Assembly (NCBI RefSeq): GCF_964340395.1
Contig: NC_135568.1
Location: 11,616,276-11,680,275 of the forward strand
Origin: Glandiceps talaboti
Lineage: Eukaryota > Hemichordata > Enteropneusta > Spengelidae
Direction of reading: 5' to 3'
Length of the DNA: 64,000 bases
Shown here: piece by piece, positions 19,085-55,200 of the stretch
How positions within the stretch are numbered: the stretch's first letter is position 1
Layout of the letters: each line of letters begins with the position of its first letter
Translations under genes and position numbers: made by a program
The notes under the pieces: generated by a model
What the model was told of the DNA's origin: nothing
Seen by the model: only the letters and a program-made list of their open reading frames with translations
Database searches by the model: none

Positions 19085-19208
19085 ATCAAGATGGCATCAG
19101 AAGATGGTTATGATTCTAGTATTAGTGTAGGAAACATATCAGGAATAATGGAATACTCAGATTCAGAGTGGTCCTTACCACCAATCAGACTGATGACATG
19201 GGAAAAAC
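19085..19208 (+). CDS. SESTD1-like: SESTD1-like exon 1 (5' coding exon, ATG 19091)
   Basis: Acceptor TTTTCTTACAG precedes 19085, so another exon lies upstream. The bases ATCAAG before the ATG are in frame, so the true start could be further 5'. It encodes [10 protein letters not shown]... to TWEK and ends in phase 1 before donor GTAAGT. Joined to exon 2 the frame is kept. From its internal ATG (19148) to the donor it is the first copy of the tandem array below. Confidence 0.65.
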
Positions 19209-22200
19209 GTAAGTTGGAATTACTGAATCAAATTATTTACCAGCAGTAGTTTATATCAAATTGTTGAAAAGTTTAGTAATATTTCATAAATAATGGAATA
19301 CTCGGATTCAGAGTGGTACTTACCACCTAGTAGACTGATGACATGGGAAAAAATGTAAGTTGGAATTACTGAATAAAATTATTTACCAGCAGTAGTTTAT
19401 ATCAAATTGTTGAAAAAGTTTAGTAATATTTCATAAATAATGGAGTACTCAGATTCAGAGTGGTCCTTACCACCAATCAGACTGATGACATAGGAAAAAC
19501 GTAAGTTGGAATTACTGAATAAATTTATTTACCAGCAGTAGTTTATGTCAAATTGTTGAAAAAGTTTAGTAATATTTCATAAATAATGGAGTACTCAGAT
19601 TCAGAGTGGTCCTTACCACCTAGTAGACTGATGACATGGGAAAAACGTAAGTTGGAATAACTGAATAAAATTATTTACCAGCAGTAGTTTATGTCAAATT
19701 GTTGAAAAAGTTTAGTAATATTTCATAAATAATGGAATACTCGGATTCAGAGTGGTACTTACCACCTAGTAGACTGATGACATGGGAAAAAATGTAAGTT
19801 GGAATTACTGAATAAAATTATTTACCAGCAGAAGTTTATGTCAAATTGTTGAAAAAGTTTAGTAATATTTCATAAATAATGGAGAGTTCAGAGTGGTACA
19901 TGTACTTACCACGTAGCAGACATGGGAAAAATGTAAGTTGGAATTACTGAATAAAATTATTTACCAGCAGTAGTTTATGTCAAATTGTTGAAAAAGTTTA
20001 GTAATATTTCATAAATAATGGAATACTCAGATTCAGAGTGGTCCTTACCACCAAGCAGACTGATGACATGGGAAAAACGTAAGTTGGAAATACTGAATAA
20101 AATTATTTACCAGCAGTAGTTTATGTCAAATTGTTGAAAAGTTTAGTAATATTTCATAAATAATGGAGTACTCAGATTCAGAGTGGTCCTTACCACCAAG
20201 CAGACTGATGACATGGGAAAAATGTAAGTTGGAATTACTGAATAAAATGTTTGAGTAACCCCCAACCCCACCCCACCTAGGGAACCCCAACCCTACATGT
20301 CTGCATGTTAAGTTTAAATACACAGGTAAGTGTACAATTAAGCAGATTCTCTCCATAAAGCAGCAGTGAAGAATAGTATGTAGTCAATTTTTATCAGAAT
20401 TTACTACTTTATTGTAATCGTCTCACTTCAAGTAGACTGAAATATTCATTTGTTGTTGTTGCCTGTGCGCCACAAAACGACAGCAATGTTGAGTATAACA
20501 ATGATTAATTCGTTTAGTCTACACTCCTAGATGTGTGGCTTCTATTAATCTTCAAGAGGGTAGGCTTTTAAAAAAAAAAGTTTATCAGTCAAGCAGTATC
20601 TCTTCATTGTTAATTATCACGATTTACTACTTTATTGCAATCTTTCCACTTCAAGTAGACTGAAATATTCATATGTTGTGTTGTTGTCTGTGCTCCACAA
20701 AGTGACAGTAATGCTCAGTATAAACAATGATGAATCATTAAGTCTGCACTTGAAGGTGCGTGATTTCTGTTAATCTTCATAAAGTATAGGATAGGCTTTT
20801 TTAAGGAAAAAGTGAATTGGTATCTCTTCAATTGTTTTATCAGGATTTCTACTCTATTGCATGCAATCTCAGGACACATTTGTATGTGTCTGCACGTAAT
20901 CCCCACTAAGTATAGGATAAGCATTTTTTTTCAAGTTAATCAGTGATATTTGGTGCTAACTATTATTGTCATTTAAACAAATTGTGTTACAGTTGATGAG
21001 TTGGTAAAGTATGTCTGCATTTTCAGAAATGTTTATATAGCTCAGCCTTCCATCCCAAAATTATACTTAGAGAACATTTTTTTTTTGAAATAGCTGATTT
21101 CTAGTCGTTGTAATTATTGTAGTAGACATCACAGCTAAAAGTAACCAGAGATCTGAATGACACAGATCACAATCTCTAAACATAAATGTAAATATCAAGG
21201 GATACCACACTCAATGAACCCAAAGCAAAACAAACAAACAATTAGACAAAAATGCCTTTTCCCCACAAAACAAAAACCACCAAAAAAAACCACAAACCAA
21301 AAAACAAACAAACCAAAAACCTCACATCTGTCATTAAGTTATAGTAGTCTCCAATCGTCAGTTGCAAAATAATTGTAACTGTTCAGAGATACTGTAATCA
21401 TACAAACAAAACCAAAAATAACAGAAGGAAAAACAAACAAAAGACATATGTTGCTGACTTAAAGCAGTTTTCAATCTCCAAATTCACATCAAAGGTAAAT
21501 ATTAATGGACAACAGTTTTAATGAAGTGAAACAAGACAAACAAACAAACCAAAAAAGAGCAACCCTACAGTTTCAGACAGTTTCAAAAACAGTGGTACAT
21601 GTCAGGTACATGGTTTACTATGAATGCATGAATGGATTAGGGAGTAGTGCAGGTGTGTTGAGGGGGTGGGATGCAGGTGGGTGTGATGTAATATAGTTTA
21701 TAGACAGAATCAGATAGTGACAGGTAGTACATGTGAATGATTATAATTTAAGGATGGTCTGAACAACAGATCTTTGATTGGTACATGTATGTGTATGTAT
21801 TCTAACTAGTAGACATACCATTCATACATACAAACAAACACCTGGGTTAACAATGTATGACCTCGCAACAGTATCAAAAAGAGAAATAAGTGAGCTTTTA
21901 CATGTATATAATTCACAATACTCCATTTTGTTTTACGTAACTTTACACTGAGAATTCTTTGGCAGAATAATGCCACTGTAAACAATACATTTCTACTATG
22001 TAGATAGTAAACCCAAATAATTTGAGGACATTGCACTCTTCCTCAAGAGTGTGATGTTACATATCGGTAATAGCTGCTAGAGTCAATATTTAAGTGTGAC
22101 AGAACTTGATTCCTTTGACAGAACTTGAGACCCACTGATGAAGGGAGCTCAGTGTCTTTGGCATATTGAGTCAGAAATGTGTAATTTGTGATGATACTGT

Positions 22201-52200: not shown

Positions 52201-55200
52201 ACTCTCAAATTTGAAAACACTGCCAAGGTGAGAAAACAAACTAAGGTGACTCCACCAAATCATCACTGGTGTTGAGAAAATCTCTTCATTTTGATCTGTG
52301 GAATAGAAAGTCTGTAAGGTACACAGTGACAGTGTGCCCTCGCTCATTAGTCGATCCCTTTATGCAGAGAGAGGATGCTGGTGAGGGCAGAATGACGTGA
52401 TGTATCTTGCTGTCTACAGCATAAAAACACATCAGAGATTAACTCAAAAGTTGTGTTCAGTATCTCCATGATTTGTCCCCATCATATTAATCAAAGAATT
52501 GTAACTGTATTTGTGTAGGGTACCTATGAATATGGTAAACAGCTATTACAAGCAGCACTGGTACTAAGAAGATCACTTCATTTTGATCTAACACAAAACC
52601 ATGAAAGAGCACAAAAACTTGCCAGAGCTTGGAGACAGTTCTCACATGCAATTGGTGAAAGATCATCCAGACTGTCTGTATCCTATACATTTCATAGAAA
52701 TACTGAAACAGTAAGTTCACAAGAATTTTGCCGTTGTTTTTTACCCTGTTTTATTTGGGTAAAGTTTTAACCATTTTTGCCCCAATTTGTGGGCATTTTA
52801 TTCTGTAATGCATTTGTTTTAAATCATAGTCATTTAGCATTCGATTGATCAGTTGACTGATTTGACAATTTAGAAGCACAGCAGTCATACACTCAACCAG
52901 AATTCACTCAAACAATGAAACATGTAATGCAATGAAAGGTACGGGTACAGTACTTCAGAGCGCTCTTCAAAAAGAGCATGAGCATGAGCACGGGCATAGA
53001 CGATGATATTATTGTTATTTTTTGGTGCTTCTATTTTTTCAGTTTTGAAAACTGAGTGTTATAGTGTAAGATAGATTCTGGTTGGCTACTCATGAGTATG
53101 AGATTGGGTTTGGGAAAGCCTATGGTATTGTGTCAGAAGTATGTAACGAGTGCTCACAAAAGAACAAAGGACAGTAAACGTAATAACCAAAAAGAAATCG
53201 CAACATGTACACTACATCGGATTTTAGTCACATTGTTGTAGCCACAGCTTTGGGGACTTTAATGTATGTTTATTGATATTCACAGCTCATAGACAGACTA
53301 GATGATTTCATGTGGACAATATGGCCACACCTCAGAGATAGTCATGAAGATAAACGAAAGGAAATTCTTCAACCCTTCACACAAGAGAAAGAACAACTAA
53401 TGAAGCATTATGTGGATACAGTTGCTATGGGCAGAGCATTGCTAGAGAGACTGTCGTTACCAGTTATTGCTACAGAAAGGTAAAATCATTATGGACATTG
53501 AGGGCGCTAGACTATCAGAACTTCTCTGGGGAGTGCTTGTTCTGATATTACCCCAGTGCAGACTTGAATATTTATGTTTAGGTCTTTAAATTAGCAATAG
53601 TCTAGGACACAAATACTACTAAACACCATATCTAGATTACCTAATTTATAAGGTAGTAGTCTGTTAGACCAAGAGAAATCAATCTTGCAAGACCAATTGA
53701 TGGTGAAATAGGAATTTAATGTATATCTTAGAGGTGTTTTAGGGAACATCATGTTTATTTGGCAAATTTTAATACGACACTGGTAATCCAGCTGTCGGTT
53801 TACTGAGATAGGCGCACACTAAATCTATTGTTCTTCAATGTGGTAGATTACAGAAATGGGTGATAGTGGTTCCTCTGTTGTGTGATTCTATTCACCCTGT
53901 GATCAAGATAGTGTAAACATTGGAAGTCCCAAAACAGCAATGCAAGTTTATGGAACTCTAAATAAACAGTTTACAGAGACACCTCCCTACTGAGACCATA
54001 ATTAAACCAACATCCAGTCAATGTCTTATCACTGTTGTATCGACATGTTGTGACAGTAGTTTTAATTGTGTCTATCTACCAGAGTAATACCTAGATGTTG
54101 TGTAATTGAGGATAGAAAAACCCGGTTTTGAACAAAATGATGGTAATCAGAATATGAAAGTATGTTTTTATTTTATAAATATTTGTTGGTATTTTCATTT
54201 TTGCAAGGGTACCTCTTGGTCCAGGTGTTGAAACGCCAGAAGAGTACAAAGCTACTGCCCGAATTATACGTAGACTTATCCACCGACTAGAATCTAAGAA
54301 GAATGAATTGGAGGATGTCTGGAATCATGGAAAAGAACCCCAGCCTAGAAGCAGAACTGCTTCTCCAGGACGCAGAGTCAGAGAGGTCGAGTACAAGAAG
54401 GAAGTTATTGAGATAAGGTATACTGGGAAAGGTACTGGAGATGTCCAAGAAGATACACCTGGAGTTGTCGGAATAGCTGGCAGAGGAACTCCAATGCAGG
54501 AGGAGATAGTCACTAGAAAGGAAGTACCTACAGAAATGGGAATGCCACCCGGAATGGAGTTGCCAGCAGAAAGGGGAGTCCTACCCAGAAGAGAGGTGCC
54601 AAAACATATGGAAGGATTTTCTTCGGAAGGAGAAGTGTACTCAGATCCGGAATTACCAGGCAGAGAAGTTTACATGGAAAGAGTTGCACCCTTGGGATCA
54701 GGTGTTGGAACTGAGAGGGATGATGCAGGAGTTAGGGGTGAACCATTGGATCCAGAATTGCTGAAAAGACTAAAACAGGGGATGGAAGAGGTGAGTAAAC
54801 TTTAACAATTTTTTATATTATTATTCTTGCAGCATACACGTGACATGATGATCAACAATCCCATATCATACAAAAACACAGATAAAATACAGTAATACAA
54901 AAAATTAAAAAAATTAAAACTATGTAAAAACCCAGAAATTATTGAAGTATTTAAAATCCATTAAAACACCTTCGAACATAAACTAGAGACCGAGAAGAAT
55001 CCTGTTTATTAGCCTGTTTTAACATATAAAGAATTAGAACTAGAATTAAATCTTGATTATAAAACATTTGAAAATGTATATATTTATAGAAATCAAGAAC
55101 CAAATAGTCAAAATTCTATTTTACTAGTTAGGGAATTTTCTCTTTCAATTTCATTTCATTACTTTTGCTAAAGTGAAAGTAGAAGTAAAACTTCATTAAG

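Follow-up and report, generated by a model that had tools for sequence, protein, structure and literature searches.

Tandem duplications that copy exon edges into the introns of a SESTD1-like gene in the hemichordate Glandiceps talaboti

INTRODUCTION

Minisatellite-like duplications that straddle intron-exon boundaries have been described in amphioxus under the name 'mirages'. In the parts of the published accounts drawn on here, such duplications occur in the globin genes BflGb6 and BflGb9, with units of 150-160 and 157 bp, and in Adh3, with units of 10-72 bp; splicing is apparently undisturbed, and lengths differ between haplotypes (PMC3087553). Splice sites of amphioxus PGBD5 carry repeats of 60 and 108 bp (PMC3902484), and TnC is cited alongside as a further mirage gene. 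Here we consider a predicted SESTD1-like gene of Glandiceps talaboti (contig NC_135568.1), lying in a stretch of 64,000 nucleotides, all of which was analysed and which is called the window below.

A preliminary description of this DNA proposed that separate local duplications had repeatedly captured exon ends and splice sites in this one gene, and offered two ways to understand it: a tendency of the whole locus to small tandem duplication, with exon parts caught by chance, or tolerance or use of decoy splice sites. That interpretation is partly supported. The edge duplications are real and differ widely in preservation; the gene is probably a duplication-prone one whose exon edges have been captured mostly by chance, with splicing at the exon-proximal copy.

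EXON EDGES COPIED INTO THE ADJOINING INTRON

Local duplication was scored with Tandem Repeats Finder, self-BLAST and window-by-window local alignment, and all three methods show dense local tandem duplication across 19-54 kb. Up to seven of the 32 edges are captured (Table 1), and the alignments place the extra copies on the intron side of their edge. In a stringent sliding test (30 bits), matches span three of the 32: the exon 1 donor, the exon 12 acceptor and the exon 13 donor.

Exon 1 was said to be duplicated whole with its donor, in eight copies of 146 bp. The number, unit and donor hold; the exon contributes just its last 65 nt, followed by the donor and ~80 nt of intron. The copies start at 19144, 19289, 19436, 19582, 19728, 19875, 20014 and 20159, GTAAGT is present in all eight (that is, at 7/7 extra donors), and copies 1-7 are 0.87-0.99 identical in pairwise alignment. 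A longer period of 432 bp, about three units, is fitted by Tandem Repeats Finder too, and copy 2 is 0.99 identical to copy 5, so growth of the array must have taken at least two steps.

The acceptor and start of exon 12 occur three times, as had been proposed, with exon starts at 50800, 50995 and 51176 (spacing 195 and 181 bp). Identity is 85% over 68 bp by local alignment and ~71% over 255 bp by self-BLAST; slice identities for these copies and for the last exon 1 copy were too low, the slices having overrun the repeats, and the exon 12 figure is taken from self-BLAST. The last part of exon 13 with its donor is likewise present three times (51775-51883, 51970-52108 and 52110-52241; 79-90% identity by self-BLAST), the donors reading, in order and with a slash at the exon end, aag/GTAAGG, aaa/GTAATA (weak) and aag/GTGAGA. 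Part of exon 14, which had been assigned to this unit, does not belong to it: the piece resembling the interior of exon 14 is a separate, weak match that reaches no exon edge. A (CCA)n run of ~25 units lies at 51890-51963, inside the first exon 13 unit, and the next copies hold few CCA; the microsatellite seems to have expanded within the unit.

The 117-bp array after exon 6 had been suspected of the same origin, and this is probable, with the exon 6 donor as its starting point: in gapped alignment ~13 exonic bases and the donor align with the unit at a score of 31, where shuffled sequence reaches 19 at most. The stringent sliding test gives no match across this edge. The array holds eight donor-like sites, atg/GTGGGT or close to it, and is 97% uniform (Tandem Repeats Finder), yet it is clearly diverged from its apparent source, which suggests an old duplication that was amplified or homogenised recently. 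One frame is open across many of its copies (45404-46365; open reading frames of 124 and 205 amino acids); joining that frame to exon 6 was rejected, as a stop lies in the first partial copy.

The 3' end of exon 7 is present twice, at 46679-46738 and 46775-46832, with 86.7% identity by self-BLAST and a gapped alignment score of 45 (shuffled maximum 19). Whether its donor was included is uncertain, because the solid match ends 12 nt before the exon end and only a gapped tail crosses the edge, aligning the site cat/GTGGAG. Decayed copies of the exon 4 and exon 6 acceptors with their exon starts, both of which have lost the AG, are likely, though not certainly, edge captures as well. In the 32-edge scan that scored them, shuffled controls had their 99.9% point at 24 and a maximum of 29 among 8660; against distant real DNA, scores of 24 or more arose for 0/656 edges and 5/1306 other gene positions. 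Identity among copies thus spans 0.99 (within the exon 1 array) to ~71% (exon 12), in keeping with the earlier suggestion of repeated duplication and varied decay.

DUPLICATION ALONG THE GENE

The edge copies are part of a larger pattern. By self-BLAST, local direct repeats cover 28.4% of the gene (19085-54790), as against 3.9% of the sequence upstream (1-19084), and 27.9% of the sequence downstream (54791-64000). At 30 bits the sliding test scores 515/1646 intron positions and 13/140 exon positions as duplicated, with 51/950 upstream and 107/450 downstream; at a threshold of 24 the counts are 560/1646 for introns, 22/140 for exons and 6/32 for edges. These figures favour the first of the two readings offered earlier, locus-wide duplication with chance capture.

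Do exon edges nevertheless attract duplication? Enrichment per base was rejected: edges, at 3/32 (or 6/32 at threshold 24), are duplicated less than introns, and inside introns the positions up to 300 bp from an edge are duplicated no more often (95/404) than those farther away (420/1242; sliding test, 30 bits). The six edges at the lower threshold include that of exon 7, by way of an alignment lying partly within the exon; the exon 6 donor, despite its score of 31, is not among them because its match extends <6 nt into the exon. The per-base comparison tilts towards introns, as each copy of an intronic array counts; arrays were therefore collapsed to single events, which were then placed at random. 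Among all 27 events there are 7 edge captures against 3.4-3.6 expected (P 0.04-0.06); among 20 strong events, 5 against ~2.5 (P ~0.1); and in a strict count without the exon 6 donor and exon 7, 3/20 against ~2.5-2.6 (P ~0.5). The exon-dense half of the gene has 6/9 events at edges against 3.06 expected (P 0.04; strong events 4/6 against 1.82, P 0.07), and the long-intron half 1/18 against 0.54 (P 0.42). The preliminary description had held that its idea would fall if copies were no commoner at edges than elsewhere in introns and no copy were spliced; copies are indeed no commoner at edges per base, while per event the edges show at most a weak excess (7 against ~3.5).

Several choices entered the event list. 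The cluster at 43517-44193 was halved into two events, with offsets of 540-550 bp dropped, and one other cluster was trimmed; unit lengths are mostly the commonest short offsets; the exon 14 piece was placed as an event and not scored as an edge capture; collapsing the exon 7 pair cut exon 7 by ~40 nt.

THE HOST GENE AND ITS SURROUNDINGS

The model has 16 exons with GT/AG ends, and their phases agree, so that 928 codons read through as a single open frame. The predicted protein matches the Pfam families CRAL_TRIO_2 (PF13716, 2.8e-08, residues 81-198) and Spectrin_SESTD1 (PF24915, 7.9e-35, residues 434-542), and so has the architecture of the SESTD1 family, a Sec14/CRAL-TRIO domain followed by a SESTD1-type spectrin repeat; judged from this protein, the gene is an animal SESTD1-like gene. 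Exon placement was guided by the human SESTD1 sequence, and the model rests on in-frame joins. The ATG at 25044 in exon 2 aligns with the human start, and exon 1 is therefore predicted to encode an N-terminal extension; exon 16 closes with a donor, so the gene may extend further.

Table 1. Exons of the predicted SESTD1-like gene, copied edges and intronic arrays (positions in the window)
Feature	Position	Strand	Basis
E1, 5' coding exon, ATG 19091, phase fits E2	19085..19208	+	in-frame join
E1-donor mirage array, 8 copies of ~146 bp	19144..20248	+	Tandem Repeats Finder, 146 bp x 7.6
E2	25036..25098	+	exon model
Intron 2 array, 111 bp x 20, stops 54 bp short of E3	31605..33829	+	Tandem Repeats Finder
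E3	33884..33998	+	exon model
Intron 3 array, 131 bp unit	34038..34668	+	Tandem Repeats Finder
E4 acceptor and exon start, likely decayed copy, offset ~102 bp, AG lost	44038..44089	+	score 24
E4	44175..44265	+	exon model
E5	44822..44935	+	exon model
E6 acceptor and exon start, likely decayed copy, offset ~149 bp, AG lost	45023..45095	+	score 26
E6	45215..45331	+	exon model
Probable E6-donor mirage array, 117 bp unit	45328..46372	+	Tandem Repeats Finder, gapped alignment
E7	46573..46750	+	exon model
Second copy of E7 3' end	46775..46858	+	self-BLAST, gapped alignment
E8	47154..47377	+	no edge capture detected
E9	48153..48275	+	no edge capture detected
E10	48830..49021	+	no edge capture detected
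E11	50277..50391	+	no edge capture detected
E12-acceptor mirages, two intron copies and true acceptor	50767..51226	+	alignments
E12	51176..51417	+	exon model
E13	51734..51856	+	exon model
E13-donor mirages, true copy and two intron copies	51775..52241	+	self-BLAST, alignments
E14-interior-like piece (match from 52550), weak	52258..52324	+	alignment, score 27
E14	52519..52710	+	exon model
E15	53286..53479	+	exon model
E16, 3' end is a donor	54208..54790	+	exon model

The window has a G+C content of 31-41% per 2 kb, somewhat low beside ~41% in lancelets, and Rfam and tRNA scans of it gave no matches. One array unit matched nothing in genome_contigs or viral_contigs, two collections not built from animal genomes. 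The 111-bp array of intron 2 (~20 copies) carries the motif TTTTACCAGGTAATATT in its consensus unit; the exon 3 acceptor was rejected as its source, with a score of 18 that equals the shuffled maximum. A 96-bp array unit in intron 3 (36349-36894) has inverted relatives ~7 kb off, at 43693-43946 (self-BLAST), and may therefore stem from a dispersed element. Self-BLAST also gives an inverted repeat pair of ~500 bp at 84% identity (29467-29962 and 30520-31029), possibly a mobile element, and a dispersed direct repeat at 76% identity (18856-19030 and 44566-44747), near the end of which GGGAAAGCACTATATAAAAA resembles the tail of a short interspersed element. Upstream, between 3444 and 11961, lie three single-frame genes for rhodopsin-family receptors (3444-4445 and 6075-7124 on the minus strand, 9044-10114 on the plus strand) and a sulfotransferase gene (11023-11961, plus strand).

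ORIGIN AND FATE OF THE EDGE COPIES

The likeliest account of these copies locates their cause in the surrounding DNA. The gene would sit where short tandem duplications, of units of ~50-300 bp, readily form, and duplication would have recurred along it, with replication slippage or unequal exchange as the probable mechanism. Where a duplication straddled an exon edge, the exon end and its splice site would be copied onto the intron side. Tolerance of such copies would follow from splicing at the donor nearest the exon or at the 3'-most acceptor, which the intact frame suggests and which leaves the message unchanged; the gene model uses these sites wherever decoys exist. The copies would then amplify, homogenise or decay as neutral intron DNA, and the arrays would be 'mirage' minisatellites. 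Capture mostly by chance is the simplest account, and a mild bias is possible. Against it weigh a possible per-event excess at edges, of about twofold; the hand curation of the event list (27 events from 26 clusters) and of the unit lengths; and the retention of GTAAGT at every extra exon 1 donor, which says little because that array is young or homogenised.

The excess is what an active role for splice junctions would predict: edge features (the pyrimidine tract, the GT-rich donor, transcription-linked structures) would start duplications above chance. The full event list and the exon-dense half lean that way, but the excess is less significant among strong events and nearly vanishes in the strict count, the long-intron half contributes a single capture, and the per-base comparison runs in the opposite direction. 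Moreover, the conserved exon halves of edge copies make old ones easier to detect, and the per-event test is post hoc and confined to a single gene. We regard junction bias as unlikely, and give no better chance to its wider form, in which duplication in this lineage would be some twofold likelier at splice junctions and the gene would steadily gather decoy sites at its edges. A more improbable proposal is that the copies are put to use, their donors and acceptors giving rise to alternative transcripts, or to ones with poison exons, through which the gene is regulated. Intact-looking sites are plentiful, with GTAAGT at all the extra exon 1 donors, GT at 8/8 exon 6 donor-like sites, AG at 2/2 exon 12 copies, and sites at 2/2 exon 13 copies, one of them strong and one weak, as scored with a matrix derived from the same 16 exons. 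Even so, 14 strong donor-like sites occur in 19457 intron bases outside the arrays, the AG is gone from the exon 4 and exon 6 acceptor copies, and the amphioxus papers, in the parts drawn on here, suggest that mirages leave splicing undisturbed (PMC3087553, PMC3902484). Longer proteins made by way of decoys are rejected, as all 19 tested extensions meet an in-frame stop (exon 1, 7; exon 6, 8; exon 12, 2; exon 13, 2), and extension beyond exon 7 soon reaches one too; use of a copy could at most follow a poison-exon route, or produce a truncated exon 1 leader with a start in exon 2. The second reading of the preliminary description, the use of decoys, thus finds no support in these counts.

Two further accounts are very improbable, and to about the same degree. 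The repeats might mark introns born from tandemly duplicated exon segments, as happened, on the portion of the report used here, in a potato RdRp gene, where an intron arose by a boundary-crossing tandem duplication (PMC4974935), and as has been proposed for the amphioxus globins (PMC3087553, likewise in part). In the SESTD1-like gene the partner of each captured edge sits within the intron adjoining that edge, and no exon end pairs with the next exon start at a score of 24 or more in the 32-edge scan. Alternatively, the assembly may have collapsed or falsely expanded repeats; long arrays are easily mis-assembled, and one amphioxus mirage was misassembled in the draft, according to the part of that account drawn on (PMC3087553). 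The copies described here, however, diverge by ~1% to ~30% and lie at several separate sites of different ages.

COMPARISON WITH KNOWN SYSTEMS

Judged by the pattern of its repeats, the SESTD1-like case is the same kind of thing as the amphioxus mirages, and the pattern has already been published. In both, on the sections of the amphioxus papers considered here, tandem units lie across intron-exon boundaries, on either side of the exon, and many keep AG or GT (PMC3087553, PMC3902484). The unit clearly spans the boundary at exons 1, 12 and 13; at the exon 6 donor and exon 7 it does so in gapped alignment, with exon 7 uncertain, and at the exon 4 and exon 6 acceptors in decayed form. Many copies, though not all, retain the dinucleotide, which is lost at those two acceptors, and the exon 7 site is weakened. 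Among the literature matches listed, judged by titles and the starts of abstracts, none describes mirages by that name outside amphioxus, which is not proof of absence.

The potato RdRp intron gain, as far as the consulted part of its description goes, shares a duplicated segment that crosses an intron-exon boundary, but the SESTD1-like gene has no sign of a new intron (PMC4974935). Ordinary intronic minisatellites share tandem arrays and homogenised copies, whereas some of the units here take in a coding exon's end together with its splice site.

What the gene adds is a dense example of mirages, at up to seven edges, with ages that run from near-identical copies to ones that can barely be recognised. 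It also offers a test of edge preference, in which counting starts once every array has been collapsed to a single event. The spliceosome's choice of the exon-proximal site among near-identical neighbours could be studied here as a natural experiment, and if junction bias were true, edge decoys would be a lasting supply of new exons or introns. What differs from the amphioxus mirages is that here up to seven edges of a single gene are affected, accompanied by ~20 other local duplications elsewhere in the gene, some of them weak.

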